A stretch of DNA of 64,000 nt from NCBI RefSeq assembly GCF_000006985.1, contig NC_002932.3:1633551-1697550 (forward strand). The letters run 5' to 3'. Position numbers and translations under genes: made by a program. The notes under the pieces were generated by a model that saw only the letters and a list, made by a program, of their open reading frames with translations, ran no database searches and was not told the origin of the DNA. Below are positions 24,678 through 48,891 of this stretch, piece by piece (the first letter of the stretch is position 1; each line of letters starts with the position of its first letter). The stretch is from Chlorobaculum tepidum TLS (GTDB taxonomy: Bacteria > Bacteroidota > Chlorobiia > Chlorobiales > Chlorobiaceae).

Positions 24678-24776
24678 AACTCTTCAACAATTGCCAACTC
24701 TTCAACAATTGCCCTGTCCCGAAAACTTTCGGGACAGGGTTTACGGATAAAACAAAATGAATCAGGGCTTTAGCCC
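24678..24776. repeat. Dispersed intergenic element, copy 1
   Basis: Exact tandem 18-mer AACTCTTCAACAATTGCC (24678-24695 and 24696-24713), the hairpin CCCTGTCCCGAAA/TTCGGGACAGGG (24712-24739) and GGGCTTTAGCCC (24765-24776). The same series occurs at 35258-35330. Its end supplies the last codons and stop of the radical-SAM gene. Confidence 0.75.
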
Positions 24777-25901
24777 AATTTCTTCATCTGTTGACTTTTG
24801 CAAATTATTGTTGACCGAGAAAGAGTCTGACGTTAGCGCAGTCCGGATCAGCCAGCACTTCGGGTCGAGGCCGTCCGCGTCGCCGCTGTAGTGATACGCG
24901 CTGGCCCGACAACCCCAGCAGTGAGCGTTGTTGACGCAGTCGTTACACGGATTGGGCAGGTTCTGCACGTCGTGCAGTGCGGCGTGAACGAGCGTGTCGA
25001 GATGCCGGGCGACAATGTCGCGGAACGGCGTCGTGCGGATGTTGGCCACGCCCTCGCGGATGACCGAGCACGGAGTGACGTCGCCGGTGAACGTTACCGT
25101 AGCCATCGTGCCGCAGTAATATTTGTCGGTGTCCATCGCCGCGATGGAGATGTTGTCGCCGCCGTAATCGATGCGATCGCGCTCGGTATAGACGCGCTGC
25201 ACCTCGTCGAGTTGCGGCTCCAGCGAGCGCCACTCCGCGCCCATCCCGGCGGGATTGAACATCGTCAGGCAGGTGCGCAGGCCCTTCTCGCAGAACCACC
25301 AGCGCATGGTTTTGATAGCGTCCTCCGGCCCCTGCAACGACGTGTAGGTGATGCAGTTAATCATCATGTCGGCGGGCTTGCCGAGCGCGAGCAGGTTATC
25401 GACGCCTTCGACGATGGCCTCGATGAAGTGCGGATTCCCGCCGCGATGCAGCTTCGCATAGACCTCCGGCGTAATGGAATCGACGTGCACCGATACGAAG
25501 CCACCCTCGCTCACCTCGTGCACTCGGGCCGCGACCTCCTTGCTCTTCAGCGGCAAGCCGCTCGTCCAGACGTTGTTGACGAGGCCCAACGAGCGGGCAT
25601 ACTGCATCAACTCGTACCAATCCGGGCGGACGAGCGGATCGCCACCCAGCCAGTCAATGGCGCGAATTTCCAGCGCCGCCGCATCGCGGAGCAGGCCGCG
25701 GATTTCATCTGAGGTAAGACCATGGTGCTCGCGGGGAGTCGAACCGGCGTAACAGAAAATGCACCCCTGCTGGCAGGCATCGGTGGTTTCGATTTGCAGC
25801 GCGTAAAGCCGCTTCTCCGCAAAATACCGTTTCTGCTCATCCTCCCGACCAGCAGCCAGCCCGCCATACCGCTTCAGATGATCGTTAATGCAACCCGCCA
25901 T
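24762..25901 (-). CDS. Radical SAM/SPASM domain protein
   Basis: 379 residues. The radical-SAM motif DACQQGCIFCYAG (CxxxCxxC) is at about residues 42-50. A C-terminal SPASM-like Cys cluster includes NPCNDCVNNAHCWGCRASAY. Such proteins modify peptides or small molecules with auxiliary Fe-S clusters. The ATG at 25901 has GGGAG nine bases upstream. The end (EEIGLKP) is encoded by the dispersed repeat GGGCTTTAGCCC. Substrate not readable; it may act with the methyltransferase downstream. Confidence 0.82.
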   Translation of the reverse strand: MAGCINDHLKRYGGLAAGREDEQKRYFAEKRLYALQIETTDACQQGCIFCYAGSTPREHHGLTSDEIRGLLRDAAALEIRAIDWLGGDPLVRPDWYELMQYARSLGLVNNVWTSGLPLKSKEVAARVHEVSEGGFVSVHVDSITPEVYAKLHRGGNPHFIEAIVEGVDNLLALGKPADMMINCITYTSLQGPEDAIKTMRWWFCEKGLRTCLTMFNPAGMGAEWRSLEPQLDEVQRVYTERDRIDYGGDNISIAAMDTDKYYCGTMATVTFTGDVTPCSVIREGVANIRTTPFRDIVARHLDTLVHAALHDVQNLPNPCNDCVNNAHCWGCRASAYHYSGDADGLDPKCWLIRTALTSDSFSVNNNLQKSTDEEIGLKP

Positions 25902-26185
25902 ACGGTTCATCTCCCTGTTGATTGATGCTGTTACAAACACAGTAAACTCTCTTCAAACAGGTCGTTAACGCTGAAAAAGTTTCCTTCAGACATGGTTTGC
26001 GGAGAGAGACCGTGCTGAAAATTCAAGCGGTTTTTTGAGGCGAGTGCGACAATTTCGCCGATATGACGTTGCCGCTTACGTCATAAATAACTACATTAAC
26101 CTATGCGATACCCCAAATTTTCGCATATATACCCCTCCCGTTCGGGAACCCCTATACCCCTTCAATCCAAACGGAGAAAAAAATC

Positions 26186-27784: not shown

Positions 27785-28333
27785 TTACGGCGCGGCGTTG
27801 ACTTTCGAGACCTCGATGCTTTCGACCATCTTCACGTGGCGCGGGCCGTTGGCCCGGTCGTTGTCGCAAAAGATGACGAACGGGCCGCCCGTTTCGACCG
27901 GCTTGCCATTCTCCTCGAATACCAGCCACGCGCCATCGCCTGCAACGCCGTAGCGAAGCTCGTTCATCGTGAAGATGACGTTGTAACCATCCAACGAGCG
28001 GACGAGCGCGTAGTACTCGCCGCGCTCGCGCGGATTTGGCATCACCACTTTGGTCGAATCGAGAATGTCGCGAAGCAGCACCCCCTTGAAGCTCCTCATT
28101 GTCTGCTTCGTCTGGCCGGAATCGCAAACAATCGCCGTCGCGCCTTTCTCGACAGGCTTCATCCTCCGAAGCGATTCGACGGTAAGCGTCAGCGGATGCT
28201 CCACCAGCCCAAAAACCTTCACCTCGCCGGGGCCAGATTGCGCAGGTTCTGCCTGCAAGCCACAGAAGGAGAAAAGCACAACCAGCATCAGAAGAGATGA
28301 ACATGCCTTCCGGATGTTTTTCATTGTCGTCAT
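27785..28333 (-). CDS. Secreted small molybdopterin-binding-domain protein (sulfite-oxidase-like fold)
   Basis: 182 residues with a signal peptide ([15 protein letters not shown]), then [50 protein letters not shown] and [11 protein letters not shown], the layout of the oxidoreductase molybdopterin-binding domain. The Cys in IVCDSG sits where sulfite oxidases have their Mo-ligand Cys. It is much shorter than complete enzymes. It directly follows a TonB receptor gene, so it may bind the imported ligand in the periplasm rather than catalyse. Confidence 0.7.
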
Positions 28334-28336
28334 CAA

Positions 28337-30391
28337 TTACAGTTTGAAATTCAAACCACCATAGAAATAGGTACCCATTGCGCCCGCGCCTTCGTTGTTG
28401 CCATATCCGGTATTGGCGTCGTCGTTGAAGAGGTTATCGACTCCGGCGAACAACTCGGCGTGTTTCGAGACCGATTTGGAGAGGTAGCAGTTCACGAGCG
28501 TGTAGCCGGAAATCTTCTCATCCGCCGAGCTGTACTGCGTGCCGGTGGAGACAACTCTGACGTTGCCTTTCAGGCCGAACCGGCTATTGGCGTAATCGAG
28601 CCGGAGAACATTGGCGACATCGGGCGCGAAGAACAGCGCTTCGCCGGTATCGAGGTTCTCCGTATCGAGAAAGCTGACCCGGTCGGAGAGCGTGAAGCCG
28701 TGCGGCAGCGCGAGCGATGCGCTGATTTCGATGCCGCGCGTCATCGCTTTCGAGAGGTTCTGGTACTGGTAGGTGTCGGGCGTGGTGGTGTCATCGGCCA
28801 GCACCAGCGAAATCATGTTCCTGACCTCGTTGCGAAAAGCGGTCACACCTGCGTTGAAACCACCCCGTGAAAAGTCAGCGCCAACCTCCCAAGTCTTCGA
28901 GCGTTCAGCTTTGAGATCGGGATTCGACAGGACGATGCTTCTTCTGGTCGTCAGCGAACCGGTGTAGAGTTCGTAAATCGATGGCGCACGAAAGCCCTCG
29001 CCGTATGAAGCCCGCAGTTTGAGATGCGAATCGACGGGCAAAAGCACCGCAACCTTGGGGCTGTACTCCGAACCGAAATCGGAATGGTCGTCGTACCGCA
29101 CACCGGCGATGATCGTCAGCGGCTTCAAGCCGGTGAACTCGTCCTGGAGGTAGAGGCCGAGATTATCGACATCGTGCGAAATATCCGTCTTGTCTGTCGC
29201 CACCATCGTTGTCGGCCCGCTGTTGACCAATCCGGTTTTGGTGACCACCTTTGTCGTGACGGTGCTGCCCGAATCCGTGCGCGTCTCGGTACGATATTCA
29301 ACTCCGGTAGTCAGGCGATGGACTTCGGCGATGCGCCCCGTCCAGCGAGCATCGAACTGGTCGTAATCCTGCGACACCTTCGTGCGGCTGGCCATCGTCG
29401 TTTCAGTGGTCGTCGTGGTGCCGGATGCTGTTGCGCTGGTGACGGTCGGCACGCCGTCGTGATTGTCCATGTCTGACCGCCAGTCGTAGGTGCTGCGGGC
29501 AACCTTCAACGAAAGGTTCGACTCTTCGCCTGTTTTTATTTCCGCTCCGGCATGCACAAGCAGGCGGTCGCTATCCACCCAGCGGTCGAAATCACCCGAG
29601 TTTTGCGTACGGATGCCATCGAGCGAGTTGTCGGCATAGACGATACCGCCGGTCAGTTTCACACCCGGCGTCAGGTCGCAGGTCAGCGAGGCCGATCCGG
29701 AGGCGATGCGACGGTCGTCGCCATCGGTCATGAGGTCGGACTGGTCGCGGTCGTAACGGTCACGATCGTAATAGGTCCCAGCCACCGCGAAGCCGAGCTT
29801 GCCCGCCGAACCGCTCACCCAACCATCGGTCTCGACAGTGCCCGCCTCTCCGGCGCGGCTCTCGCCCCCGGAAATTGACAGGCCACCATGCAAATCCTTC
29901 GTCGGCTTGCGGGTGATGATGTTGATGACGCCGCCCACCGCATCGCTGCCGTAGAGCGCCGAGCCGGAACCCCTGACGATTTCGATGCGCTCGATCATAC
30001 CGGCCGGAATTTCACGCAGGTCGGAGTAGCCCTGAAACCCGGACTGCAACCGGTAGCCATCGATGAGCACCAGCGTCAGGCTGCTACCAAGGCCGCGTAA
30101 TTTTGCCACGCCAAGCCGTCCGTTCACCGGTTCGAGAGCATTGACATCCTCCGCCTCCGCAAGCACGTCGGCAAGATTCAGGGAGCCGCTCTCTTCAATC
30201 TCCTGCCGGGTGATCACCTCGACGGCCATTGGCAGTTTGGAGACAGGGTTTTCAGTTCGGGTAGCAGTAATGACAATTTCGTCAGCCGTCCAGCCTGGAA
30301 CGGTATCAGCGGCCCAAGCCTGCGAGCTTGCGGAACCGATGATAGCCGCCACCATAAGTATCCGGCAGGATCGGGAATTCAGTACATTCAT
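28337..30391 (-). CDS. TonB-dependent outer-membrane receptor 1 (BtuB-like)
   Basis: 684 residues. Signal peptide ending AWAADT, TonB box-like ADEIVITATRTENP, plug domain with LRGLGSSLTLVLIDGYRLQSG and YGSDAVGGVINIITRKP, and a C-terminal barrel ending GGLNFKL. It imports a large chelate (cobalamin, siderophore or metallophore) with TonB energy. ATG 30391 starts the signal peptide. A GTTATAACGAT motif lies 18 bp before the start. Confidence 0.9.
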   Translation of the reverse strand: MNVLNSRSCRILMVAAIIGSASSQAWAADTVPGWTADEIVITATRTENPVSKLPMAVEVITRQEIEESGSLNLADVLAEAEDVNALEPVNGRLGVAKLRGLGSSLTLVLIDGYRLQSGFQGYSDLREIPAGMIERIEIVRGSGSALYGSDAVGGVINIITRKPTKDLHGGLSISGGESRAGEAGTVETDGWVSGSAGKLGFAVAGTYYDRDRYDRDQSDLMTDGDDRRIASGSASLTCDLTPGVKLTGGIVYADNSLDGIRTQNSGDFDRWVDSDRLLVHAGAEIKTGEESNLSLKVARSTYDWRSDMDNHDGVPTVTSATASGTTTTTETTMASRTKVSQDYDQFDARWTGRIAEVHRLTTGVEYRTETRTDSGSTVTTKVVTKTGLVNSGPTTMVATDKTDISHDVDNLGLYLQDEFTGLKPLTIIAGVRYDDHSDFGSEYSPKVAVLLPVDSHLKLRASYGEGFRAPSIYELYTGSLTTRRSIVLSNPDLKAERSKTWEVGADFSRGGFNAGVTAFRNEVRNMISLVLADDTTTPDTYQYQNLSKAMTRGIEISASLALPHGFTLSDRVSFLDTENLDTGEALFFAPDVANVLRLDYANSRFGLKGNVRVVSTGTQYSSADEKISGYTLVNCYLSKSVSKHAELFAGVDNLFNDDANTGYGNNEGAGAMGTYFYGGLNFKL

Positions 30392-30474
30392 GAACGATAT
30401 GTTTTTACAGTTATAACGATGGATAAAAAATGAGTCTGATCGGCATTCACGACAAATCATCGGTACACGAGGGA

Positions 30475-32259: not shown

Positions 32260-33330
32260 TCACGAGCTGGACACATCCTCCCGCAGCCCTTTCTTCAACT
32301 CGACATCGAGCGCGGCGCTCAGGGTTTCGTAGTCGTTTTGGAGCAGGAACTCCCATGACGGGAAGCTGAAGGGCTGCGTCCAGTCGAACTCGTCGGCAAG
32401 GTGAAAATCGCCACGGCGCAGCGCTTGCCGGATGACGTTGCTGTGCATGAAGTTCACGAGCGGCTGGCACTCCTCCTTCCGCGAGCGCTTGACGTACATG
32501 AGCATCGGGGCGAGCACCGGGCCGTCCTCGAATTCGAGGATCGCCGCCCGCTTCTTCGACGGCATCTGCACCGTGGCGGCGTTCGGCAGCAGGTTGAAAA
32601 GCGTGCGGCGCGGCTCCGCTGAATCGATGCGCTTGAGGATTTCGGCGAAGTGCCAGATGTTGCGGATGTTGCCCGCGAAGTCGGTCACGGCGCGGCTGCC
32701 GAGCTGCTCCCGGAGAAGCAGCAAAAGCGCGGCGATGCTCGCCTTGCCGTTGTAGCCATGCACCGTGATGAGGTCTTTGTAGAGCGGATCGACCAGATCC
32801 GTCCAGCGCCTCGGGTAGGGCACGATGGTTTCGAGCGACAGGTCGCACACCACGCTCCAGAAGCCGGTGCTGAACAGGCCGATGTTGTGCTCCGTCACCA
32901 GCTTGCGGTACGACTCCGGCATCCGCGCGAGCGCCGCCTGGCTCGTCACGCCCTCGTAAATCCCGCTCTCGATGAAGCGCTCGCGGAACCCCTTCGCCAT
33001 CACCGTGTGCAGGCCGGAAGCTACGAGCACCTCGGGCAATTCATCCTCGCTCATCGCCGCTTTCAGTTCGCCCTCGATCCCTTTGGTGTCGCCATCGAGC
33101 AGCATCGGCGAGTAGATCGGCGTTTCGTGCGAGGCGTTGTAGAGCGCCGCGAATTCGCCGATGGCCATCTTGCAGGCCACCTTGAGCGGGCAGGGCATGT
33201 TCATGTAGAAGTTGATCGCCCCCTTTTTGATGAGCGGCACGCCGTTGCCCGTGGTTCGGCGGTGCAGCGGCGGCTGGCTGCACACCGCGAGGACGTTGCC
33301 GTCCTTGTCCATCTTATCGACTGGTTTCAT
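32260..33330 (-). CDS. Substrate-binding-protein-like protein without a signal peptide
   Basis: 356 residues. The body resembles ABC iron-type (class II) binding proteins: IYSPMLLDGDTKGIEGELKA, LPEVLVASGLHTVMAKGF and TDLVDPLYKDLITVHGYNG. It starts MKPVDKMDKDGNVLAVCSQP without a hydrophobic leader, so it should stay in the cytoplasm. This is odd for the fold and suggests intracellular ligand handling. The start overlaps the end of the lipoprotein gene by about 17 bases. Confidence 0.7.
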   Translation of the reverse strand: MKPVDKMDKDGNVLAVCSQPPLHRRTTGNGVPLIKKGAINFYMNMPCPLKVACKMAIGEFAALYNASHETPIYSPMLLDGDTKGIEGELKAAMSEDELPEVLVASGLHTVMAKGFRERFIESGIYEGVTSQAALARMPESYRKLVTEHNIGLFSTGFWSVVCDLSLETIVPYPRRWTDLVDPLYKDLITVHGYNGKASIAALLLLLREQLGSRAVTDFAGNIRNIWHFAEILKRIDSAEPRRTLFNLLPNAATVQMPSKKRAAILEFEDGPVLAPMLMYVKRSRKEECQPLVNFMHSNVIRQALRRGDFHLADEFDWTQPFSFPSWEFLLQNDYETLSAALDVELKKGLREDVSSS

Positions 33331-34435
33331 CATGTCCCGGTTTTGATTTTGCGCTCTGTACCGGCGCGACATCCGTGAAGGCGAAAGGGTGCAACACCTC
33401 GCGCAGCTCGGCGTCGGTCAGGTCGCGGTGAAAGAAAATGGTGAAGTACTCTCTGGTAGCAGTTTCGAGATCGATGTGATAGACCTCGGGATAAACCAAT
33501 TGGGCGAGCCAGAGCGCTCCGAGAATCCGGTTCGTGCCCGGCGGGCGGTCAAACCAGCCGAAGGGGAGAAACGGAATCTGGTGGATGCGCCCCTTGCGGA
33601 CGGCGGGAACCCGCTGCCAGAGCGGATCGGCGGCGATGGCGCGATAGGTGGTCATCGACGGCCCCATGCCCGTCCAGACGATCACCTCGTCGGGATTCCA
33701 TTGCAAGACCTGCTCCATCGACACGGCGCTCATCCCCTTGCCGGAGAGCCGGTTGACCTGGGCGACGTTGGTCGCGCCGACCAGATCGATGATCTGACTG
33801 TGGAACGATCCCGATGGATCGGTGTTCAGGCCACGATTGCCTTCGGCGTAATAGACTCGCTTCCGCTGGCTGACGGGAATCTGGGCAGCTTTGGCGAACA
33901 CCGGCAGCAGCCACTTTTCGATGTATGCCGTCATCTTCGCCGCCTGCTCCTGCCTGCCGAGCAGCTCGCCCATCGCCGCGAACGCTTCGGGGTAGCGCTT
34001 CATCTCCATATCGACCATGAAGACCGGAATGCCGGTTCGCTGACTGAGCCGGTCGGCCTGGTCGATGCTTTGCGGATTGATCGCAAAGTAGGAGATGATG
34101 ACGTCGGGATGAAGCTTGACGATCTCCTCGGCTGAACCATCCGAGAACGGCAGTTTGAGATACGCGGGACTCATGAAGCGTTCCGCGCCGTCGGTCATCC
34201 AGAGCGAGCGGTTCACCATCAGGTCGGGCGCGACGGCGTAGAGCGTCACGCTGCCGGGTCGCGTTGCGTAGGCCCGATCGATGGTGACGGGAACCGTCAT
34301 GCGCCGCCCGGCCATATCGACCACCTCGCGCGTCGCCGCATCGGGCTTCTTGCCGCCGGACGGCTGGCAGGCTGCCAGCAACAGCAGGAAGAACGGCAGA
34401 AGCCAGAGGAGGGTGCGAGTCGATGCGGCTCTCAT
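33314..34435 (-). CDS. ABC transporter periplasmic-binding lipoprotein (BtuF/FepB-like)
   Basis: 373 residues. The lipoprotein signal ends LLLLAACQPSG, followed by the two-lobed class III binding-protein pattern: VVDMAGRRMTVPVTIDRAYA, EEIVKLHPDVIISYFA, TGIPVFMVDME and WNPDEVIVWTGMG. It delivers a chelated metal, corrinoid or oxyanion to the permease/ATPase upstream. It overlaps the methyltransferase stop (ATGA). Closest layout: FecCD/BtuCD-type systems, which also include MolBC molybdate importers. Confidence 0.88.
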   Translation of the reverse strand: MRAASTRTLLWLLPFFLLLLAACQPSGGKKPDAATREVVDMAGRRMTVPVTIDRAYATRPGSVTLYAVAPDLMVNRSLWMTDGAERFMSPAYLKLPFSDGSAEEIVKLHPDVIISYFAINPQSIDQADRLSQRTGIPVFMVDMEMKRYPEAFAAMGELLGRQEQAAKMTAYIEKWLLPVFAKAAQIPVSQRKRVYYAEGNRGLNTDPSGSFHSQIIDLVGATNVAQVNRLSGKGMSAVSMEQVLQWNPDEVIVWTGMGPSMTTYRAIAADPLWQRVPAVRKGRIHQIPFLPFGWFDRPPGTNRILGALWLAQLVYPEVYHIDLETATREYFTIFFHRDLTDAELREVLHPFAFTDVAPVQSAKSKPGHDETSR

Positions 34436-35067
34436 GCTTCCACCTCCGCAGGTTTGCGGAAAATGATCCAGGTTCCGGCCTCCTGATGCTCCACGACGCC
34501 ATCGATGCCGAGCCGTTCGAGTATCGCTCTGAAGTGCTCGGGCGGATTCTGCGTCATACGCTCCCTGCGCTTGCGGTTCCACTCGGGATCGTCGGCTTTG
34601 GCTGCCTCGATTTCGCGCAGCAGCTCCGCCGTGCCGAAGCCACCGCCGATCCACGCCCAGCCGCCGGGCCGCAGGACGCGATACACCTCGGCAAGCCCTT
34701 TTTGCTGATCCTCCCAGAAAAAGATCGAACCCCGGCTCACTACCAGATCGATCGATGCGTCATCGAACGGCAACGCTTCGGCCACCCCCTGCACGACATC
34801 AACGCGCTCGGCGACGCCCGCTTCGGCACTGTTCTCGCGGGCCAGCTCGACGCACTCCGGCATGAGATCGACCACCGTCACAGTCAGCGAGGTGATTTTA
34901 GCCAGACAGACGCCGAGCATCCCCGGCCCGCCGCCGAGATCGACGCAGCGCCCGGAACGCACGCCCGTCCGCTCGACGATCTGCGCGGCGATGACCGGAT
35001 AGATTTTGCGGAAATGGCCCTTCATGATCTTCTCGTTGAACTCCGCCGCATTCATAGTGTAACTCAT
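34432..35067 (-). CDS. Class I SAM-dependent methyltransferase in the uptake cluster
   Basis: 211 residues. Motif I is CVDLGGGPGMLGVCLAKIT near residue 42, then VVDLMPECVELARENSAEAG, IDLVVSRGSIFFWED and EVYRVLRPGGWAWIGGGFG. Small UbiE-like methylase without an identifiable substrate domain. It sits between the importer ATPase and the binding lipoprotein, overlapping the latter by four bases, so it probably modifies the imported ligand. Confidence 0.85.
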   Translation of the reverse strand: MSYTMNAAEFNEKIMKGHFRKIYPVIAAQIVERTGVRSGRCVDLGGGPGMLGVCLAKITSLTVTVVDLMPECVELARENSAEAGVAERVDVVQGVAEALPFDDASIDLVVSRGSIFFWEDQQKGLAEVYRVLRPGGWAWIGGGFGTAELLREIEAAKADDPEWNRKRRERMTQNPPEHFRAILERLGIDGVVEHQEAGTWIIFRKPAEVEA

Positions 35068-35342: not shown

Positions 35343-36143
35343 CTACTCCACCACCGGAGCGCAGACCCTTCGGCTGGCGTGGCCGTTTTGCGGGGTGTCG
35401 AACACCTGCACCTCGACGCCGTAGATGCTCCGCAGCGTATCCGGGGTGAGCGTCGCTTCGGGCGGGCCGTCGTGGCTCAGCTTGCCGCCGGAAAGCACCG
35501 CCACGCGCGAGGCCGCCATGAAGGCGTGGTCGGGGTGGTGCGTCGCCATCAGAATGCCGATGCCGCGCCCGGCAAGCGCCCTGACTTTGCGGAGCAGCCG
35601 CACCTGGTTGCCGTAGTCGAGGTTCGAGGCCGGTTCGTCGAGAATCATGAACCGCGCCTCCTGCGCCAGCGCCCGCGCAATGACGACCATCTGCCGCTCG
35701 CCGCCGCTCAACTCGTTGAACGGGCGACTGGCGAGATGACCGATTTCGAGCAGTTCGAGGCACTCCGCCGCAATCCGGCGATCACGCGCTCCCGGCGAGG
35801 CGAAGAGGCCGAGATGCGCGCTCCGGCCGAAAAGCACCACATCACTTACCGGATAGGCGAACGGCATGGCGTAGGATTGCGGCACGTAGGAGACGATACG
35901 CGCAATCTCCGTCGGCGAAAGGCGAGAGACTTCGCGACCCGCAAGCGTCACCGAGCCATTAACCGGAGCGATGAAGCCGAGCATCGTCCTGAACAGCGTG
36001 GTTTTGCCCGCGCCGTTCTGGCCGAGCAGGCAGATGATTTCGCCCGGCTCAATCTCCAGATCGACATTGTTCAGAATCGCCCTGCCGTTGTAGCCAAGTC
36101 CGGCGTTCCGCAGGGCAATCGACTGTTCCTTGAGCTTCACCAT
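35343..36143 (-). CDS. ABC importer ATPase (BtuD/FecE-like)
   Basis: 266 residues: Walker A LLGQNGAGKTTLFRTMLG, signature NELSGGERQMVVIARAL, Walker B ARFMILDEPASNLD and switch ATHHPDHAF. It powers the neighbouring FecCD-type permease, whose reading frame it overlaps by seven bases. Confidence 0.93.
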   Translation of the reverse strand: MVKLKEQSIALRNAGLGYNGRAILNNVDLEIEPGEIICLLGQNGAGKTTLFRTMLGFIAPVNGSVTLAGREVSRLSPTEIARIVSYVPQSYAMPFAYPVSDVVLFGRSAHLGLFASPGARDRRIAAECLELLEIGHLASRPFNELSGGERQMVVIARALAQEARFMILDEPASNLDYGNQVRLLRKVRALAGRGIGILMATHHPDHAFMAASRVAVLSGGKLSHDGPPEATLTPDTLRSIYGVEVQVFDTPQNGHASRRVCAPVVE

Positions 36144-37132
36144 GCGCGTAGCGATGAGCGTTTCATGATCCAGATGAAAAAGGGCGCACCAAGCACCGCC
36201 GTGATGATGCCGACCGGAATCTCCACCGACGCCGCCGAGCGGGCGACCGTATCGACCGCCACCATGAAGGCCGCGCCGACGAGGAACGAGACCGGCATGA
36301 GCCGCCGGTGGTTCGCTCCGCCGAGAAACCGCGAGATGTGCGGCACGACGAGGCCGACCCAGCCGATGATGCCGCAGATGGAAATCATGCTCGCCGTCAC
36401 GAGCGTCGCCGAGAGGATCACGGCGACGCGCATCCGTTCGGTGTGCAGGCCGAGCGAGCGGGCCTCCTCCTCGCCGAACGAGAGCACGTTCAGCCGCCAG
36501 CTCACGAGCAGCAGCGGAATCGCGCCCGCGAACACCATCGCCACCGCTGCGCCAAGTTCGCCCGTGCGGATGTCGGCGAAGCTGCCCATGAGCCAGTAGG
36601 TGATGGCGGGCAGCTTGTCGAGCGGATCGGCGATGTACTTGAGCAGCGAGAGCAGGGCCCCGAAGAGCGACGAGATCACGATGCCCGACAGCACGAGTAC
36701 CAGCACCGAATCGCCGTTTCGCCCGATGGCGCGGCTGACCAGCACTGCGGCGAACACGGCGGTGATGCCGCCCGCCAGCGACAGCGCCTGCACGGCGGCC
36801 ACCGGCAGCGAAAAGAGAATCCCCAGCGCCGCGCCGAAACCGGAGCCGGACGAGACGCCGAGAATGTCGGGACTCACCATCGGATTGCGGAACAGCCCCT
36901 GATACGCCGCGCCGGAGAGCGACAGCGCTCCTCCGGCCGCGATGGCAGCAATCAGCCGCGGCAGGCGGATGTTGAGCAGCACCACCGGAAGGTTCGAGTC
37001 GGCGCTCCTGCCTGTCAGGAGCCACGAAAGAATCGCGAGCGGCGAGACAGGATAGCGCCCCACGCCGAGCGAGAGCAGGCTCGCGCCGCCAAGCGCGAAG
37101 AGGCAGACGAGAATCAGCGGTACTCCTTTCAT
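36137..37132 (-). CDS. ABC importer permease (BtuC/FecCD-like)
   Basis: A 331-residue membrane protein with LNIRLPRLIAAIAAGGALSL, GAAYQGLFRNPMVSPDILGV, the coupling region EEEARSLGLHTERMRV and GWVGLVVPHISRFLGGANHR, the typical FecCD signature. It transports siderophores, corrinoids, heme or molybdate as a dimer. ATG 37132 lies just 9 bp from the TonB receptor stop. Confidence 0.92.
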   Translation of the reverse strand: MKGVPLILVCLFALGGASLLSLGVGRYPVSPLAILSWLLTGRSADSNLPVVLLNIRLPRLIAAIAAGGALSLSGAAYQGLFRNPMVSPDILGVSSGSGFGAALGILFSLPVAAVQALSLAGGITAVFAAVLVSRAIGRNGDSVLVLVLSGIVISSLFGALLSLLKYIADPLDKLPAITYWLMGSFADIRTGELGAAVAMVFAGAIPLLLVSWRLNVLSFGEEEARSLGLHTERMRVAVILSATLVTASMISICGIIGWVGLVVPHISRFLGGANHRRLMPVSFLVGAAFMVAVDTVARSAASVEIPVGIITAVLGAPFFIWIMKRSSLRAW

Positions 37133-37140
37133 CGAGCTGC

Positions 37141-39159
37141 TCAGAATGCGTAATTCATCGACGCGATATACTCGCGCCCGGCTTCCGGATACCCCTCCGC
37201 GACCTCGTAGTTGCGGTCGAAGAGATTGTTGACCGCCGCATGAAGCGAGAGCGCGTCGGTCAGCCCGGCGTTTATGTGCAGATTCAGGAGGCCATAAGGC
37301 GATGCCGTGTACTTCCCGTCGCTGGTGCTGTAACGCTTCGTGTTGTATTCGCTCTCGACAAGCACCCAGGTCTCCTTGTTCAACAGGAACTGCACGGAGC
37401 CATTGAGCTTGTGCTTCGGCACATCGGTAAAGACCAGATCGGGATTGCTGTCGTTCTGCCGGTCGATGTAACTGTAGGCCACATGCGCTTTCAGCCACGC
37501 TTCCGGCTGCCAGTCCATTGAATATTCGAAGCCGGTGAAGGTTGACTTGCCGGTATTCTGCATCTGCCAGAGCCAGGTGCTGGTCGCCGTATCATAGGCG
37601 ACATTGTTGACCTGCTGGATGGTGTCGTCGAGCTTGCTCCGGTAAACCGACGCGTGAAGCGAAAATTTTCCGGAGGGTGTAAAAGCGTAATCGAGACCGT
37701 AGTTCAGGCTCTGTTCAGGATCGAGGCCGGGGTTGGCAATCGCCCTGCCCATCCGGTAGGAGTAGCGATCCTTCAGCGTGGGAAAGCGCGTCGTCCGCGC
37801 CACATAGCTGGTCAGCGTGTTGCAGGCGTCCAGATGCCCGACCATGGCGAGCTGCGCGTTGGCTGCCCGGTTGTCTTCGAGATCGAACGAATGGATGGCC
37901 GTATGAGTGTTGTCGGTGAACTCCTGCGCCTCGATGGTGGAGCGGAAATCCTGACGGACACCGGCGATGAGCGTGAGATTTTTCGAGGCATTCCAGGTGT
38001 TCTCGACGGCAATCGAGAAGGTGTTGTCCGCGAACTTCAGCGGCTCCTCGCCGGTGTTACCGATTTCGTTGTGCATGTCGTACTTGTCGTGCAGCGCGAC
38101 TTTGAGGATGTCGCTCTGCGCGATGCTGGTGCCGAACTCCACCGAACCGCCGACCGTGTGGTCATCATAGCGGCTCGAAAAAGCTTTATTGCTATGCTGA
38201 GTGGTGTAGGTAGCGTCATCGTAGCTTTCGAGCGTGTTGTAATAATTATCGAAATAGGCCCGCGTTTTCAGGTAGCTCTTCTCGCCGAGGCTGGTGCGGC
38301 CGATGTAGTACAGGCTGGTTTTGTCCCAGTTGGTGAAGCGCCAGAAGCGGCTCTTGTTGTTCGGATTCGATCCGGTATAAAGCGGCACGCCCTTGACCGA
38401 GTGCTGGCTGTTGAGGGTGATGGAGTACTCGTCCGTGCTGTTGGGTGTGTAACCGATTTTGATCGTGGCGTTCCGGTCACGGGTATCGGAGTTGCCACGC
38501 TCGCCGCCGTCTTCGTTCGCGACAGGTTCAAACGAGGAGGAGAGTGGCATGAAGTCGCGACTCAGCACGGAAAGCCCGGCCTGCACGTACCACTTGCCCT
38601 GATTCGAGCCGATGTTGACGCTTTCAAATCCGGCGTCGATCTCGTCGTTGCCCATCGATCCGCCAGCGCTAACGTTGCCTTCAAGCTTTTTTTCCGGCTT
38701 GCGGCTGACCATGTTGATCGCGCCGCCAAGCGTGTTCGGGCCGTACAGCACCGAGGTGAAGCCTTTGGAAACGCTGACTTCCGACAGGTTCATCGTCAAA
38801 AAGCGGTTCGGATCGACATAGCCGTCGTACGGCACGTAGAGCGGAACGCCGTCGAGGTAGAGCGGCACCTGGCGCATGTCGAAGCCGCGCACGTAGATCA
38901 TCCCTTCATTGCGCCCGCCGACATTACTGATCGTGACGCCCGGCAGAAGATCGGCGGCTTCGGAGAGATTCTGCTTGTCGAGCATTTCCATCTCGGCGGC
39001 GGGAACCGTTTCGGAGGAGTTGGCACTCTTGCCCGTGACGACGATCTCGCCCGCCGTGAAAACCGGCGTGGCGCTCTGGTCGCTCGATGCAATGGTTTCG
39101 GCTGCAATTGCCGGCCTGACCGCGGCCAGCAGCAACACCATCAATACTGCTTTCTTCAT
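37141..39159 (-). CDS. TonB-dependent outer-membrane receptor 2
   Basis: 672 residues. Signal peptide RPAIAAET, TonB box-like AGEIVVTGKSAN, plug with GMIYVRGFDMRQVPLYLDGV and YGPNTLGGAINMVSRKPEKK, C-terminal barrel ending YIASMNYAF. It should bring the ligand for the BtuCDF-like system directly downstream into the periplasm. A CGTTATAAC motif lies 16 bp before the start codon. Confidence 0.92.
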   Translation of the reverse strand: MKKAVLMVLLLAAVRPAIAAETIASSDQSATPVFTAGEIVVTGKSANSSETVPAAEMEMLDKQNLSEAADLLPGVTISNVGGRNEGMIYVRGFDMRQVPLYLDGVPLYVPYDGYVDPNRFLTMNLSEVSVSKGFTSVLYGPNTLGGAINMVSRKPEKKLEGNVSAGGSMGNDEIDAGFESVNIGSNQGKWYVQAGLSVLSRDFMPLSSSFEPVANEDGGERGNSDTRDRNATIKIGYTPNSTDEYSITLNSQHSVKGVPLYTGSNPNNKSRFWRFTNWDKTSLYYIGRTSLGEKSYLKTRAYFDNYYNTLESYDDATYTTQHSNKAFSSRYDDHTVGGSVEFGTSIAQSDILKVALHDKYDMHNEIGNTGEEPLKFADNTFSIAVENTWNASKNLTLIAGVRQDFRSTIEAQEFTDNTHTAIHSFDLEDNRAANAQLAMVGHLDACNTLTSYVARTTRFPTLKDRYSYRMGRAIANPGLDPEQSLNYGLDYAFTPSGKFSLHASVYRSKLDDTIQQVNNVAYDTATSTWLWQMQNTGKSTFTGFEYSMDWQPEAWLKAHVAYSYIDRQNDSNPDLVFTDVPKHKLNGSVQFLLNKETWVLVESEYNTKRYSTSDGKYTASPYGLLNLHINAGLTDALSLHAAVNNLFDRNYEVAEGYPEAGREYIASMNYAF

Positions 39160-39215
39160 GGATATGGTTGATTTCGTTATAACTCTTAATATATAATGCT
39201 GTACAAAAAAAGGGG

Positions 39216-40013
39216 CTACCCGGCGTTTTCGGGGGCCTTGACAAAAAACTCTTGCGATCCCGCAGGAACGTTCCGAACTCTCACGTACCGCCCGATATGG
39301 TACACCACCGGCTCCGGCAGGGCGATCGAACAACCAGCCGCCGTTAGCTCGCCAAGAGTCGTCCGCGCAAACGCCTCATCCGGCCATCCGGCCTTGCTCA
39401 CCGCCACGACCGGCATTGCATCAGGCACGCCCGCTTCACGAAAAGTCCGGAGGATACCCGGCAGATTCGCCGTCGCCATGTAGAGCACGACCGTCGCGCC
39501 ATGGCCGAGCAAGTGTGCGGCATCGCGGATGAGCGCGAAGTCGTCGGTGATCGCGGCGGCGATGAGGTTGAGCACGGCGTCGCTCTCGAACTTGCGGCTG
39601 ATCGGCAGGGCGTAGGCGCTCGCCGCCGCCGCTCCGGCACAGATGCCGGGAATAGCGGCCCACGGAATGCCGAGCCGCGTGAGCACGTCGCCCTCATCAA
39701 CTTCGCCGCCGAACAGCGACGGATCGCCGGTTTTCAGCCGCACGACGCGCAAGCCACGATCACGATACTCCCGAATCACCACGATCATCGGCGTCTGTTC
39801 GCGACGCCCCTCGCCGGTTTCATATGGCGAACGATCCACGCGAACAATCGCGGCGCGTTCGGATGCCAGCGCGAGTACCGGCTCGACCGTCCCGCAGTCG
39901 TAGAGAATGACATCGGCCTCGCGGATGGCCGCCGCGCCGCGCACCGTCAGCAGCTCCGGATCGCCCGGCCCCGCGCCGACAATCAGAACCCTGTTTTCTC
40001 CATGCTCCGCCAT
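39216..40013 (-). CDS. Divergent tetrapyrrole methylase (SUMT/CobA-like)
   Basis: 265 residues with the SAM-methylase fold: VLIVGAGPGDPELLTVRGAA, VRLKTGDPSLFGGEVDEGDV, IPGICAGAAAASAYALPIS and VVLYMATANLPGI. Standard uroporphyrinogen-III methyltransferases read KGGDPFIFGRGGEE at the second motif; this one has KTGDPSLFGGEVDE, so it may methylate another tetrapyrrole. It is the first gene of the uptake operon. ATG 40013 directly precedes the conserved core; longer starts add an unrelated stretch. Confidence 0.8.
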   Translation of the reverse strand: MAEHGENRVLIVGAGPGDPELLTVRGAAAIREADVILYDCGTVEPVLALASERAAIVRVDRSPYETGEGRREQTPMIVVIREYRDRGLRVVRLKTGDPSLFGGEVDEGDVLTRLGIPWAAIPGICAGAAAASAYALPISRKFESDAVLNLIAAAITDDFALIRDAAHLLGHGATVVLYMATANLPGILRTFREAGVPDAMPVVAVSKAGWPDEAFARTTLGELTAAGCSIALPEPVVYHIGRYVRVRNVPAGSQEFFVKAPENAG

Positions 40014-40419
40014 CTGATGAATCACTTTACGGCTTTCATTATTTCCTAAAAAATATAACGCCTGACAAAAAAAGAGGTGAAGTACTTTTCTTGTCAGAAT
40101 TTGCGACATCTTCACCATTATTCAAACAATTCCTACCTATTGGTATATAAATTTACAGAAAACAGCTTTTCTTATTAAAAAATTAAGGTTTCTTAATCTC
40201 ATCCATTGCCGTAAAAGAAAAATTTCATTATTTTAAGCAGTGCGTTATAACAGAGCCAACAGATCGATTTGACCCCATGTATTCGCGCATCCAGACGCTT
40301 GACAAGAACCGGCCCGGAAACGAGAAAATTCGGTTCACCGCCGCAGGATACGCCATGCAGCTTTCAATGCATCATCTCAACAACGCTTAGCTCCACCAAT
40401 CCCTATCAGGAGTAACACC
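40014..40419. promoter_or_regulatory. Divergent promoter region between the tetrapyrrole methylase and the molbindin
   Basis: 406 AT-rich bases without a convincing gene. It contains CGTTATAAC at 40243-40251, the same motif found before both TonB receptors, and TATAACG at 40054-40060. AGGAG lies nine bases before the molbindin ATG. An AT-rich run (TTCTTATTAAAAAATTAAGG) sits in the middle. Confidence 0.5.
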
Positions 40420-40845
40420 ATGAACATCAGTGCACGCAACATCTTCAAAGGCTCCATCTCGTCGATCGTCAAGGGCGCGGTCAACGCCGAAGTGACCATC
40501 ACGCTCGCCAGCGGCACTCCGATTGTATCGATCGTCACCATCGGAGCTGTCGAAAGGCTCGGCTTGCAAGAGGGTATGGCGGCCAGCGCCATCATCAAGG
40601 CGAGCACGGTCATTCTCGGCACCAATCTGCACGACGCGAAAATGAGCGCCCGGAACATCCTTTGCGGCACCGTGACCCGCGTGATCGACGGGCCGGTGAG
40701 CTGCGAGGTCGATCTGGAGATCGGCGTCGGCGAGGTGCTGTCGGCGGTCATCACCCACGGCAGCGCCGAGAAGCTCGGCTTCGCCGAAGGCAGCCACGCC
40801 TGCGCCATCTTCAAGGCATCGAGCGTAATCATCGGCGTGGATTGA
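40420..40845 (+). CDS. Molbindin (two Mop domains), molybdate/tungstate-binding protein
   Basis: 141 residues made of two repeated Mop domains. First: MNISARNIFKGSISSIVKGA, then SIVTIGAVERLGLQEG. Second: MSARNILCGTVTRVIDGPVS, then SAVITHGSAEKLGFAEG. Both end AxxKASxVI. Mop proteins bind molybdate oligomers for storage or homeostasis. Divergent placement from the uptake operon hints that the operon handles Mo or W. A terminator follows at 40881. Confidence 0.93.
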   Translation: MNISARNIFKGSISSIVKGAVNAEVTITLASGTPIVSIVTIGAVERLGLQEGMAASAIIKASTVILGTNLHDAKMSARNILCGTVTRVIDGPVSCEVDLEIGVGEVLSAVITHGSAEKLGFAEGSHACAIFKASSVIIGVD

Positions 40846-44429: not shown

Positions 44430-45737
44430 TCAGTCCTGCTTCTTCAGCAAGCTTTGATCGACCATGGCCTGGAGTTCGGGATGGGTCTCGGCCCAGGTTT
44501 CAATTGAAATACCCTGCTCGATAGCCTCCCAAGCCTGCCTGATGCTTTTGGCGCCAGCTTTCGGCCCCATCGGATGGCCGAACACGCCGCGCCCCGGTAC
44601 AAAGCCAAAGTCCACGTTGCCGACCTTTTCATACACGGTCTGAAGCGTCAGCGCTGAATCGCTGCCGCCGGGCACCGGAAGGCACGGCTTGATGCGACCC
44701 ATCGGTTTGGTGCACTCGATCACGTTTTCGAGCACCTCCTCCTCGGGAGTCATCATGCGATCGCCGAAGCCGGGCATGATCACCGCGTCGAGACCGGCAA
44801 GGCGCTGCAACTTGGTCATCACCTTGGAGTGAATGCCATATTTTTCCATGCGGCTGAACGAGGCAATGAACGGAAAATGACCGATCAGCGGCACCTGCGT
44901 GTAGTTGCTGAGCATCCGGACGGCACTCAGTCCCACCGGAAGCGCATTGATGAGCAAGGCATTGGCTCCGTTGCGTACGGCAACATCGTGCTTCTCCATC
45001 AGGCTGTCCACCTCGTCAGTGATGTTGGCCAGGTAAATCTTGGGTTCACCGGTCTCGGCTTCGGCCTTGCGCCGCGCCTTACCGAGATGAGCCGCACGCT
45101 CTTCGATGCTCGACCAGGTCACATCGGCCAGCATCTCATCATCCTTGGCGATATCGAGTCCGCCCAGCCAGCTCTGGTAGGCGATCTCGGCAAACTCCCC
45201 AGGACTGAGACCGATATTTGGTTTGACGACCCCAAAGAAGATCGGACGCCCGTGAGCGTTGAGAATGTCGCGCAACCCCTCGATGCCGAACTTCGGCCCC
45301 TCGAAATCGGCGAGGTAGGTGTCGGGAAAGTGAATGTCCATCAGCTTCACCACCGGTACGCCCGGCGTGAAGTAGGTGCCCTCGCCGCAAACGGCGGTCA
45401 GAAGATTGGGAATCTTCGGCCCGAAATTGCAGTGCGGATGAGCAATCGTCACGCGACAGGCATGAATCTTGCCGGTCTCGGAGTGCTTGACCGGATAGCT
45501 GAGCTGCTCAAGCTCCTCGATCACCTCGTAATCGATCACCTTGGCGGCGTGCACCAAACGGAAATCCTCATCGACGCCGACCCTCTTCCACTGAGCAGTT
45601 GACTGCTCGCTGCAGAAATGGGCAAGCGCCGTCTCTATATCCCCGACAGATTCGAGGTAGTAGTCGAGAACGAGGTATTGCTCCATGTCGAGCGATTCCC
45701 TGGAAGCAAAAAAACCTTTGACGTCTTCAGCATTCAT
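44430..45737 (-). CDS. RuBisCO-like protein (form IV)
   Basis: 435 residues with the large-subunit TIM barrel. Motif [20 protein letters not shown] replaces the GTxKPxxG active-site stretch, [14 protein letters not shown] replaces the GGxDFxKDDE carbamylation motif, and [14 protein letters not shown] is the region of the phosphate loop. It lacks the complete carboxylase active site and does not fix CO2. The C. tepidum homologue, also 435 residues, is linked to thiosulfate oxidation and oxidative stress. Preceded by an aldolase and a RhaD-like gene. Confidence 0.96.
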
Positions 45738-45776
45738 AATTTGATCCGGTCAGCCACTGCACAGTTATAAAATTTG

Positions 45777-45799
45777 GGAGGTGGCTGGAGCCGCCTCCC
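45777..45799 (-). terminator. Hairpin between the aldolase and the RuBisCO-like gene
   Basis: On the minus strand GGGAGGCGGC-TCCA-GCCACCTCCC is followed by AAATTTTATAAC. It is a strong stem, so a terminator or attenuator; the RuBisCO-like protein may then depend partly on readthrough or its own promoter. Confidence 0.6.
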
Positions 45800-45836
45800 G
45801 GTTGACAATCAAGGCGGAACAGCGCCGCCACAGAAA

Positions 45837-46718
45837 TCACTTCGCGGCCACGAGCGTATTAAAGTACTCGTAAGCTTCGTTCGGGGTGAATCCCTCGTGA
45901 ACGATCTTGTTGACTGCGAGCATCATCTCTTCGGGATTGTCGCTCTGGAAGATGTTGCGGCCCATATCGACACCTGCCGCACCCTCCTGAATAGCGTTGT
46001 ACGACATGGTCAGCGCGTCGAGCTCGGGAATTTTCTTGCCGCCAGCCATTACGATCGGCACCGGGCAGGAGGCGATGACGGTCTCGAAATCTTCCGGCAC
46101 ATAGTAGGTCTTGACGATCTGAGCACCAAGTTCCGCGCAGATGCGGGTGGCGAGGCGGAAGTACTTCGCGTCGCGCACCATGTCCTTGCCGACAGCGGTC
46201 ACGGCCATCGTCGGAATGCCATAGCGCAGGCCCATATCGACCAGTTTGGTCATGTTGTGGATCGAACGGGTCTCGTACTCGCCGCCAATGAAGACCTGAA
46301 GCGTGATGCAGGCCACGTTCATGCGGATGGCGTCCTCGATGTCAACGGCCAGCTCCTCGTCCGACAGCTCCTTGAGAATGCTCGGGCCGCCGCTGCACCG
46401 CATGACGACCGCTTTGGTGAGGCTCGGCGGCACGGTGGTGCGCAGCATGCCGCGGGTCAGCATGATGGCGTCGGCGTGCTTCATGAGCGGCACGATGTTC
46501 ACGTCGGGGCGTTCGAGGCCGGTGGTCGGCCCCTGGAAGTAACCGTGGTCGATGGCGAACATCACCGTCTTGCCGGTATCGGGACGGAAAATCCTCGAAA
46601 GGCGGTTCTTCATGCCCCAGTCGAGCGAGTGAGCGCCTTTAAGAAAAAAGCCGTGGGTATTGACCGGAATGTCGGTGTAATACTCTTTCGCCTGTTTGTC
46701 CTTATCGTACTCCGCCAT
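45837..46718 (-). CDS. DhnA/LsrF-type class I aldolase family protein
   Basis: 293 residues. [20 protein letters not shown] is the phosphate/substrate loop of the LsrF/DhnA group, [14 protein letters not shown] holds the Schiff-base Lys, and [16 protein letters not shown] is the second phosphate loop. It cleaves or transfers on a phosphorylated keto sugar. It is upstream of the RuBisCO-like gene and may supply or consume its substrate. Confidence 0.88.
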
Positions 46719-46770
46719 CGTGTGATCTCCTGGTTCGGTTATGGTTTTAAATGAAAAGCTACGCTATTGA

Positions 46771-48891
46771 TTACCGCAGCGCGGCGGCGATGTTGCCTCC
46801 GTCCACCGTGGTGATCGAGCCGGTCGTCTTGGTTTCGAGCGCCAGATGGACGAACGCATCCGCCACATCCTCCGCCGACACTTCGAGGCCGAGCAGATTG
46901 CCGGCCATATAATCTCTTTCGGAAAGGCCGCGCGCCGCCGAACGGGCCTTGATCATCTCCGGCGTGAGCAGGCCGCTGCGAATGCGGTCGGCGTTGACGC
47001 CGTTGGCGCGGATACCGTCGCGCCCGTGATCGAGCGCGTACTGTCGGAGCAAAAAGAGCGTCGCGGCTTTGGGCAGACCGTACGGGCCAAAATCCGGACC
47101 GGGATTGACCGCCTGCTTGGAAACGTTGTAAAGCAGCACACCACCGATGCCCTGACGGCGCATGATCCTGACAGCGTTCTGCGAAACGGTCTGGTGCGAG
47201 AAGAAGTTCAATTCAAAGCTCCTGCGGAGCAGCTCGTCGGAGACATCACCAATTCTGCCCTGCCATGCGACGCCGACGTTCGAGACGACGATGTCGAGGC
47301 CGCCGAAGGTGCGGCAGACCGTGTCGAACGCCTCGCGAACCGCAGCGGCATTCGTGACGTCGCACGGAATCGTGAGCGTGCCGGAGCCGAGTTCAGCCGC
47401 AGCCTTTTCGAGCGCGGCCGGATCGATATCCATGATGACAATCTCCGCGCCTTTGGCCTTGAACGCCTTCGCCGTGGCAAGGCCGATGGCACCCGCGCCG
47501 CCGGTGACGAGCGCCACCTTGCCAGCGAACTCGCCGCCGTTATGGCTCTTGCGCACCTTGGCCTGCTCCATATCCCAGTACTCGATCTCAAAAGCCTCCT
47601 TCTCGGAGATCGACTCGAAGCAACCGATCGACTCGGCGTCGAGCATCGCCACCGCCGAGTGCTCGGCGATATCCGCCGTGAGCTTCGCGTCGGCTGCCGA
47701 AAGGCCCAGGCCAAACAGCCCCAGCCCCGGCACCAGCACCACGCGCGGCATCGGATCGATCATGGAAACATCCATGCCGGTCGCCTGCTGCTGGCGCTCG
47801 AAGTAGCTGCGATACTCCTCCGTGAAGCGTTTGGCGCGCGCCCTGAGTTCCTTGCCGAACCCTTCAAGATCGGCGGCATCCGGTGCCGGAGCCACAAGGG
47901 GGTGATTCTTGGTGCGAATGATGAAATCCGGCGTCATCGCCCCTTTTTTGCTGAACGCTTCGAGGTCGGCGATCTTGAGATAATCGAGCAGCGCGGGCGA
48001 GGTTCTGAATTCAAGCACGAAGCTCTGGTAATCCTTCTCACCGGGGGTTTTCTCAAACGAACACGCGCCGCGCACAATGGGGGCAACCTCTTCGACGCTG
48101 GCGATCGCTGTCGGCATCGGAGCCGAAGCGAACACCTTGCGGGCGGCGGAAGCGATGCGCTCCTCGATGCGGTTGACGCCGTCGATCATGCGATCATACG
48201 CCTCCTTGGCCGAATCACCGAAGGTCACCAGACCATGCTTGTGCAGCACGAGCCCCTCGATAGAGGGATTCTTCTCGTATGCGTCATGGGCGAGATTGGC
48301 CAGGCCGAGACCAGGCTGGATGTAGGGAACCTGTCCGTAGCCATCGCCAAGTGCCTCGCGGCAAAGACGCTCGCCATCGGTCTGGTTGCTCAGCGTGAGC
48401 AGGGCCAGCGAGTGGGTATGGAGAATGTAGCGGTGTGGCAGAAAGGCGTGGAGCAGCGTCTCGATCGACGGGCTTAGCGACCGGCTCACCATGTGATCGG
48501 TCAGGGTAAAGAGGTTGAGATAGAGGAAATTCTTGAACTCCCTGGTCGAGAAACGGCGGATATCCTCCTCGCTGTGCCGCTGCCCGGACTCGTACATCTT
48601 TTGGAGCTTGCGGAGAGGATCGATGCGCACCGGCGTGAAATCTCCGGCATCGACCGACGCCAGATTGACGCCGCTCGCCTTGATGAAGATGACGTTGACA
48701 TGGTTGCCGATAAAATCGGTCAGTTCGCACTTCACGGAGGTATTGCCGCCGCCGTGCATGACCAGCCGGTCATCCTTGCCCAGCAGCCTCGACGCATAGA
48801 CCAGCTCTACCAGTTCCGCGGGAGTATCGGCGGCGTCGATACGGCCAGCCTCCATCATGTTCAGATCGGACTCGTTCCAGAGATTCTTCAT
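46771..48891 (-). CDS. Bifunctional RhaD-like class II aldolase / short-chain dehydrogenase
   Basis: 706 residues. Residues 1 to about 420 are an aldolase-class-II/adducin domain (VMHGGGNTSVK, then HTHSLALLTL, with Zn-ligand His). Residues from about 455 on are an SDR (LVTGGAGAIGLATAKAF, VVSNVGVAWQ, PYGLPKAATLFLLRQ). Normal length for RhaD-type fusion proteins that handle rhamnulose- or other deoxypentose-type compounds. First of the aldolase/RuBisCO-like set. Confidence 0.92.
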   Translation of the reverse strand: MKNLWNESDLNMMEAGRIDAADTPAELVELVYASRLLGKDDRLVMHGGGNTSVKCELTDFIGNHVNVIFIKASGVNLASVDAGDFTPVRIDPLRKLQKMYESGQRHSEEDIRRFSTREFKNFLYLNLFTLTDHMVSRSLSPSIETLLHAFLPHRYILHTHSLALLTLSNQTDGERLCREALGDGYGQVPYIQPGLGLANLAHDAYEKNPSIEGLVLHKHGLVTFGDSAKEAYDRMIDGVNRIEERIASAARKVFASAPMPTAIASVEEVAPIVRGACSFEKTPGEKDYQSFVLEFRTSPALLDYLKIADLEAFSKKGAMTPDFIIRTKNHPLVAPAPDAADLEGFGKELRARAKRFTEEYRSYFERQQQATGMDVSMIDPMPRVVLVPGLGLFGLGLSAADAKLTADIAEHSAVAMLDAESIGCFESISEKEAFEIEYWDMEQAKVRKSHNGGEFAGKVALVTGGAGAIGLATAKAFKAKGAEIVIMDIDPAALEKAAAELGSGTLTIPCDVTNAAAVREAFDTVCRTFGGLDIVVSNVGVAWQGRIGDVSDELLRRSFELNFFSHQTVSQNAVRIMRRQGIGGVLLYNVSKQAVNPGPDFGPYGLPKAATLFLLRQYALDHGRDGIRANGVNADRIRSGLLTPEMIKARSAARGLSERDYMAGNLLGLEVSAEDVADAFVHLALETKTTGSITTVDGGNIAAALR

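Follow-up and report, generated by a model that had tools for sequence, protein, structure and literature searches.

The class II ferric-binding proteins FbpA, AfuA, and FutA (PF13343, SBP cluster) are the nearest described relatives, by fold, of a protein encoded near the middle of the window, the whole stretch of 64,000 nucleotides from Chlorobaculum tepidum TLS that we analyzed. This protein, here called the receptor, shares with them the fold, the domain length, and the ligand loop after strand 1, but it has no signal peptide and no permease of its own and is only ∼12 to 16% identical to them. The loop that carries the His iron ligand in FbpA appears to hold an invariant Cys in the receptor, as placed from predicted secondary structure. 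A class II SBP fold is known to work in the cytosol in LysR effector domains, Thi5/NMT1, and MqnA/MqnD, but these are sensors or enzymes, and none is known to be tied to both a GTPase and an ABC ATPase. The GTPase encoded next to the receptor has the same G domain as HypB, UreG, and CobW, including PF02492, the P-loop, and the ESAG and TKGD motifs, and a Cys pair lies near the position of the HypB metal site as judged by eye. It differs from HypB and UreG in scoring far below their equivalog cut-offs, in having extra invariant Cys pairs, and in being accompanied by a binding-protein fold and an ABC ATPase instead of hydrogenase or urease factors.

The importer encoded beside the receptor, GTPase, and ATPase (the trio) also has a described counterpart. 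MolA is the molybdate/tungstate receptor of the Haemophilus influenzae MolBC-A importer (PMC4031551). The neighboring importer is likewise a FecCD/FecE/FecB type II system, and MolA (HI_1472) is the third PDB match of its lipoprotein (E=4e-13). It departs from MolBC-A in the presence of TonB receptors and the predicted cytoplasmic trio and in the closer relationship of its lipoprotein to the uncharacterized protein 4pag (E=2e-40). The alternative-nitrogenase regulon of Azotobacter vinelandii includes TonB receptor/ABC operons, and vnfA and anfA are repressed by ModE in this species (PMC9542535). The A. vinelandii ModE regulon resembles the present one in its ModE boxes before modA and anfA and in metal-acquisition TonB/ABC operons that respond to metal supply (PMC9542535), whereas we found no description of a cytoplasmic SBP/GTPase/ATPase trio as a member of a diazotroph ModE regulon. 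No description of such a trio was found in the open-access literature that we searched, most subscription papers lying outside it. Judged from its genes, we do not file the trio as a periplasmic binding protein, as HypB/UreG, or as part of an ABC transporter, because the export signal is absent, the equivalog scores are far below cut-off, and there is no membrane partner; it would work more like an inward-turned receptor/ATPase pair with a metallochaperone-type GTPase. The features of the locus are collected in Table 1.

Table 1. Genes and ModE boxes around the receptor gene, in window coordinates
Feature	Position	Strand	Basis
Small Oxidored_molyb (PF00174) protein, apparent N-terminal signal sequence	27785..28336	-	E=1.4e-9
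TonB-dependent receptor 2, downstream of trio	28337..30391	-	Plug and barrel domains
Weaker ModE box at start of TonB receptor 2	30395..30418	.	
Soluble ABC-type ATPase, 331 aa	30475..31470	-	Intact Walker A, LSGGQ, Walker B, H-loop
CobW/HypB/UreG-family GTPase, 233 aa	31467..32168	-	Pfam cobW, PDB profile matches, alignment
Receptor, predicted cytoplasmic class II binding-protein fold (SBP_bac_6)	32260..33330	-	PF13343, fold match
FecB/MolA-like lipoprotein, type II importer	33314..34429 (start approximate)	-	PF01497
Class I SAM-dependent methyltransferase	34432..35055 (start approximate)	-	Methyltransf_11, E=1e-21
FecE-like importer ATPase	35343..36140 (start approximate)	-	PF00005; corrinoid/heme/Fe-type ATPase models
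FecCD-family permease	36137..37132	-	PF01032, E=9e-84
TonB-dependent receptor 1	37141..39159	-	Plug and barrel domains
ModE box CGTTATAACTCTTAATATATAATG, 16 bp upstream of TonB receptor 1	39175..39198	.	One of three matches in the genome; 0 expected in window
Uroporphyrinogen-III C-methyltransferase-like (CobA/CysG-like) gene	39216..40013	-	TP_methylase
Weaker ModE box before CobA-like gene, overlapping promoter-like -10	40037..40060	.	
Di-Mop (molbindin-type) protein	40420..40842	+	NCBIfam Mop, E=3e-41; Pfam TOBE, E=1.5e-30

A class II fold without a leader

The receptor ORF encodes 356 aa on the minus strand, starting at the ATG at 33330 (within ATGATG at 33333/33330) and ending at 32260, and it is under purifying selection, with a dN/dS of 0.09 to 0.14 against four relatives from the Chlorobaculum group. 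An earlier note on this DNA had called the product class II binding-protein-like, and the label is right: the protein matches PF13343 (SBP_bac_6) with E=7e-60 in Pfam, and the best Foldseek matches of its AlphaFold2 model are the ferric-binding proteins FbpA/AfuA/FutA, with E down to 7e-8 and TM ∼0.5. The model has a pLDDT of 71.5 and a pTM of 0.72, with a C-lobe that is partly poor and residues 228 to 273 unreliable; a comparison of the receptor sequence with the PDB gave no significant relative. Ligand contacts in class II receptors usually lie at the first helix after strand 1, and in the predicted structure Cys47 of the receptor is placed at the N-terminal end of this helix. Cys47 is invariant and is aligned also in Fusobacterium.

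Upstream of the start, the reading frame stays open for another 29 codons, among them an ATG at 33372, and the sequences of relatives contradict a start in this region that would add a signal peptide. Four relatives (L022, L023, L026, and L034) have an in-frame stop 2 to 5 codons 5′ of the receptor start, which leaves no room for a signal peptide. The most hydrophobic 15-residue stretch upstream of the receptor scores −0.03 on the Kyte-Doolittle scale, compared with 2.64 in the adjacent lipoprotein (P0004) with its lipobox LLLLAAC, and none of the receptor relatives compared has a hydrophobic N-terminal stretch. The contrast drawn earlier between a receptor without a leader and a neighboring lipoprotein that has one is therefore confirmed. 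Measured against periplasmic ABC substrate-binding proteins, the receptor has the class II fold and neither a signal peptide nor a lipobox for export. A cognate permease is absent from the same unit; the FecCD permease has a lipoprotein and a FecE of its own, and the trio occurs without a FecCD permease in L022, L023, and L033.

These features support a receptor that stays in the cytoplasm. A periplasmic binding protein of the usual kind, its export signal overlooked because of a wrong start or non-classical export, would accord with the normally periplasmic PF13343 family and with the adjacent importer operon. We nevertheless regard it as very improbable in light of the upstream stops and the uniform lack of a hydrophobic stretch, and also of the importer having its own binding lipoprotein and of the Fusobacterium receptor carrying a DUF1858 N-domain where a leader would be.

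GTPase and ATPase partners

The two genes that follow were previously described as a metallochaperone-like GTPase and a soluble ABC ATPase, and both assignments are borne out. The GTPase matches PF02492 (cobW) in Pfam above the cut-off (E=3e-11), its PDB profile matches are UreG and HypB chains, and seven Cys residues (C39, C64, C96, C99, C110, C204, and C207) are invariant as far as Fusobacterium. It does not qualify as a HypB or UreG equivalog, scoring 49.5 bits against a required 121 for HypB and 23.5 against 204 for UreG. The Walker A, LSGGQ, Walker B, and H-loop motifs of the ATPase are all invariant from Chlorobia to Fusobacterium, and the conserved unit contains no unassigned permease that could be its transmembrane partner.

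The N-terminal ∼75 aa of the Chlorobia ATPase constitute an extra helical, DUF1858-like domain with a pLDDT of 89 in the predicted structure. Pfam gives no DUF1858 match to this domain at the gathering score, and hhalign relates it to DUF1858 weakly (P=0.001, probability 21%). The first PDB match of the domain model is 2k53 (prob 0.94, TM 0.52, E=0.16) and the fourth is 2k5e, neither with an E-value significant alone, and we take both to be DUF1858 proteins. In Fusobacterium, it is the receptor that has an N-terminal DUF1858 (E=1.7e-14), and the ATPase has no N-domain. If the structural match is correct, one DUF1858-type domain would have moved between receptor and ATPase, which suggests that the two work together in the same compartment.

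Conservation of the trio

Among 394 Bacteroidota genomes, the GTPase is found in 22 Chlorobia genomes, and the receptor is present in 22/22 of these; beyond them, G009 and G015 have receptor fragments only. Loss seems to have overtaken the genes jointly in G210, where only decayed remnants of receptor and GTPase are left. G009 has a receptor stub, no GTPase was found there, and the importer genes are kept, so import does not need the trio. Chloroherpeton and a Bacteroidales MAG (L034) keep the gene order, and a record of Fusobacterium vincentii has the same three genes in the same order, with 58.6% identity in the GTPase and 64% in the ATPase core. Genes for two ZnuA-like proteins and for a Zn/Mn-type ABC ATPase and permease come after the trio at this Fusobacterium locus (L056:15956-26000), and there is no ModE box. 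A plasmid search returned nothing for the receptor and, as the only close match for GTPase and ATPase, one Fusobacterium record. The contig scan for the trio outside Bacteroidota used Chlorobia-biased patterns, and its spread in other phyla is thus underestimated. The co-occurrence, the recurrence in the Bacteroidales MAG and Fusobacterium, and the DUF1858 placement are evidence for one cytoplasmic unit, and the comparisons support the view that receptor, GTPase, and ATPase form a genetic unit. A decayed-looking cluster in one relative (L091 in G016) retains TonB receptors, a CobA-like gene, and a fused GTPase-ATPase from which the P-loop region of the ATPase is missing.

Importer and surrounding cluster

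The end of the importer lipoprotein gene overlaps the start of the receptor gene, and the methyltransferase is a conserved neighbor of the trio in most loci. The neighboring operon has a MolABC-type make-up, with FecCD permease, FecE ATPase, and MolA-like lipoprotein all present, and its gene content fits a role of the importer in molybdenum acquisition under scarcity. Given this arrangement, the cytoplasmic receptor might bind a whole imported chelate, from which the GTPase, the ATPase, and perhaps the methyltransferase would free the metal; a TonB receptor, a FecCD/FecE/FecB-type importer, and a methyltransferase do share the operon with the trio, and small chelates suit the class II cleft. 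However, in L022 and L023 the trio has neither the methyltransferase nor the importer next to it, G009 retains the importer after loss of the trio, and we noticed no chelator biosynthesis genes, and we consider a chelate receptor distinctly unlikely.

A corrinoid/B12 or heme role, which the TonB/FecCDE and CobA-like genes could suggest, was superseded by the ModE evidence described below; a search of the window and nine related loci revealed no riboswitch. The CobA-like gene matches NCBIfam cobA_cysG with E=1e-44, below the cut-off. This CobA/CysG-like tetrapyrrole methylase gene heads the cluster behind a ModE-like box, which would place a tetrapyrrole methylase under molybdenum control.

ModE boxes, molybdenum genes, and nitrogenase

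The published ModE consensus is ATCGCTATATA-N6-TATATAACGAT, and a published site, ATCGCTATATANNNNNNTATATAACGAT, has a spacing of 6 (PMC2700814). Scanning for the half-sites CGTTATATA/TATATAACG with spacings of 0 to 10 gave 35 matches in 27 loci compared with 2 to 3 in shuffled DNA, and the spacing was 6 in nearly all. The genome of the window (2.15 Mb) has three such boxes, with 0 in the reversed control: one before TonB receptor 1, one before modABC-like genes, and one before an operon for a molybdopterin oxidoreductase. A looser pattern, allowing 2 mismatches to CGTTATA-N10-TATAACG, has 3 matches in the window, the boxes of Table 1, against 0.02 expected. In 11 genomes that carry the trio, 11/38 ModE boxes are no more than 12 kb from a receptor gene; a uniform distribution would place ∼0.4 there, and no formal probability attaches to this enrichment because the genomes are related. 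A box stands directly 5′ of the receptor gene in L023 and of a second receptor copy in Chloroherpeton. The same genome encodes a full-length ModE near nif (G000:C1:1447840-1448634), with ModE and Mop domains and 70% identity to Chlorobium ModE, and the di-Mop gene of Table 1 flanks the cluster. From these sites, we conclude that the trio cluster is probably ModE-controlled.

Two observations elsewhere in this genome concern the same regulator and metal. The molybdopterin oxidoreductase operon behind its ModE box (L126:6849) is PsrA/PhsA-like (L126:3789-6578). A protein encoded between nifB and modE/modA (L128:8467-10695) is 68% identical to a TonB receptor of L022 and is possibly another TonB-dependent route of molybdenum uptake.

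The neighborhood in relatives also supports a link of the module to molybdenum and nitrogenase. The trio cluster is adjoined by modABC or modD in L020, L026, L032, and L094 and by modE in L025, L030, L095, and L096, some of these loci being one genome reached twice. In the Bacteroidales locus, the ATPase gene is followed by one whose product carries a ModE DNA-binding domain (TIGR00637, E=6e-23, below cut-off). The trio cluster faces anfH-anfD-anfG in G172 and is separated from anf by 14 kb in G030. The second Chloroherpeton receptor copy (L090:7608-8750) lies directly after anfO in an Fe-only nitrogenase operon and has no GTPase or ATPase of its own. A strict partnership between the trio and Fe-only nitrogenase was rejected, as the two overlap in only 6 of ∼21 trio-bearing Chlorobia.

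These neighbors bear on the earlier proposal that receptor, GTPase, and ATPase make up a three-part insertion machine. The linkage of the three proteins stands, strengthened by co-occurrence, gene order, and DUF1858 placement, whereas the ModE boxes and the molybdenum and nitrogenase neighbors shift their likely role to metal handling under molybdenum scarcity. In a machine dedicated to one metalloenzyme, nitrogenase or a molybdoenzyme, the receptor would present the metal for an insertion driven by the GTPase and ATPase, and this view could appeal to the HypB/UreG insertion GTPases in the GTPase family and to the receptor paralog within the anf operon. With only partial overlap between the trio and Fe-only nitrogenase, the sole target tested for co-occurrence, such a machine seems improbable to us.

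The handling of iron or another divalent metal instead of molybdenum deserves more weight, although we still think it rather unlikely. The module would then provide extra iron for Fe-only or residual Mo nitrogenase under molybdenum scarcity and, in Fusobacterium, take part in Zn/Mn/Fe homeostasis. Such a function would agree with the ferric-binding proteins as nearest folds of the receptor, with the receptor copy after anfO, with the Zn/Mn-type importers around the Fusobacterium trio, and with a GTPase family of Ni/Zn/Co type. Fe-only nitrogenase, however, is confined to the minority of trio-bearing Chlorobia noted above and is absent from the genome of the window, which has no AnfG, and the regulation together with the Mop, modABC, and modE neighbors points to molybdenum.

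Proposed role of the module

We propose that the trio is a cytoplasmic metal-handling module of the ModE regulon, serving under molybdenum scarcity, that receives imported molybdenum or a molybdenum complex and hands it on with the help of GTP and ATP, a reading that we consider about evenly balanced between true and false. In this scheme, the ModE regulon, including the trio, would be de-repressed when molybdenum is scarce, and a TonB-dependent, MolABC-like importer would bring molybdenum in as an anion or complex. The receptor may then bind this molybdenum (oxyanion, thiomolybdate, or chelate), or else a different metal, in a cleft where Cys47 forms part of the site; release from the receptor would be driven by its partners at the expense of GTP and ATP, and the released metal may be passed to storage in Mop and to FeMo-co or Mo-cofactor assembly. 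Several observations count against the molybdenum module: the Fusobacterium trio lies beside Zn/Mn-type importers and has no ModE box, the importer lipoprotein is closer to 4pag than to MolA, the receptor's nearest folds bind Fe(III), and G009 kept the importer and lost the trio. The Fusobacterium context means that the ligand need not be molybdenum everywhere and, together with the ferric nearest folds, lends serious weight to the alternative of a general metal module brought under molybdenum control in Chlorobia.

More tentatively, and with the chances somewhat against it, the trio may represent a new "inside-out" ABC class, in which a receptor and an ATPase without a membrane part act with a metallochaperone-type GTPase to carry metal from a TonB-dependent importer to nitrogenase and molybdoenzyme assembly. 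If so, the metal in green sulfur bacteria would be molybdenum or its sulfide or chelate form, Fusobacteria and Bacteroidota would have counterparts that serve other metals, and a binding-protein fold together with an ABC ATPase would have been recruited to move metal within the cytoplasm. Sulfidic water offers little free molybdate, the uptake and internal hand-over of molybdenum by cells living there are little understood, and few parts are known for TonB-dependent molybdenum uptake or for cytoplasmic hand-over. The conserved and probably ModE-controlled trio offers concrete test genes in an established green sulfur bacterium, and the Fusobacterium trio near Zn/Mn importers indicates that the result could extend beyond molybdenum.

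Two further features of the window lie outside the cluster. At 24762-25940, near the cluster, it encodes a radical SAM/SPASM protein that is 94% conserved in a neighboring species (L109). At 44430-48891, a RuBisCO-like protein adjoins an LsrF-like thiolase and a RhaD-type aldolase/dehydrogenase.
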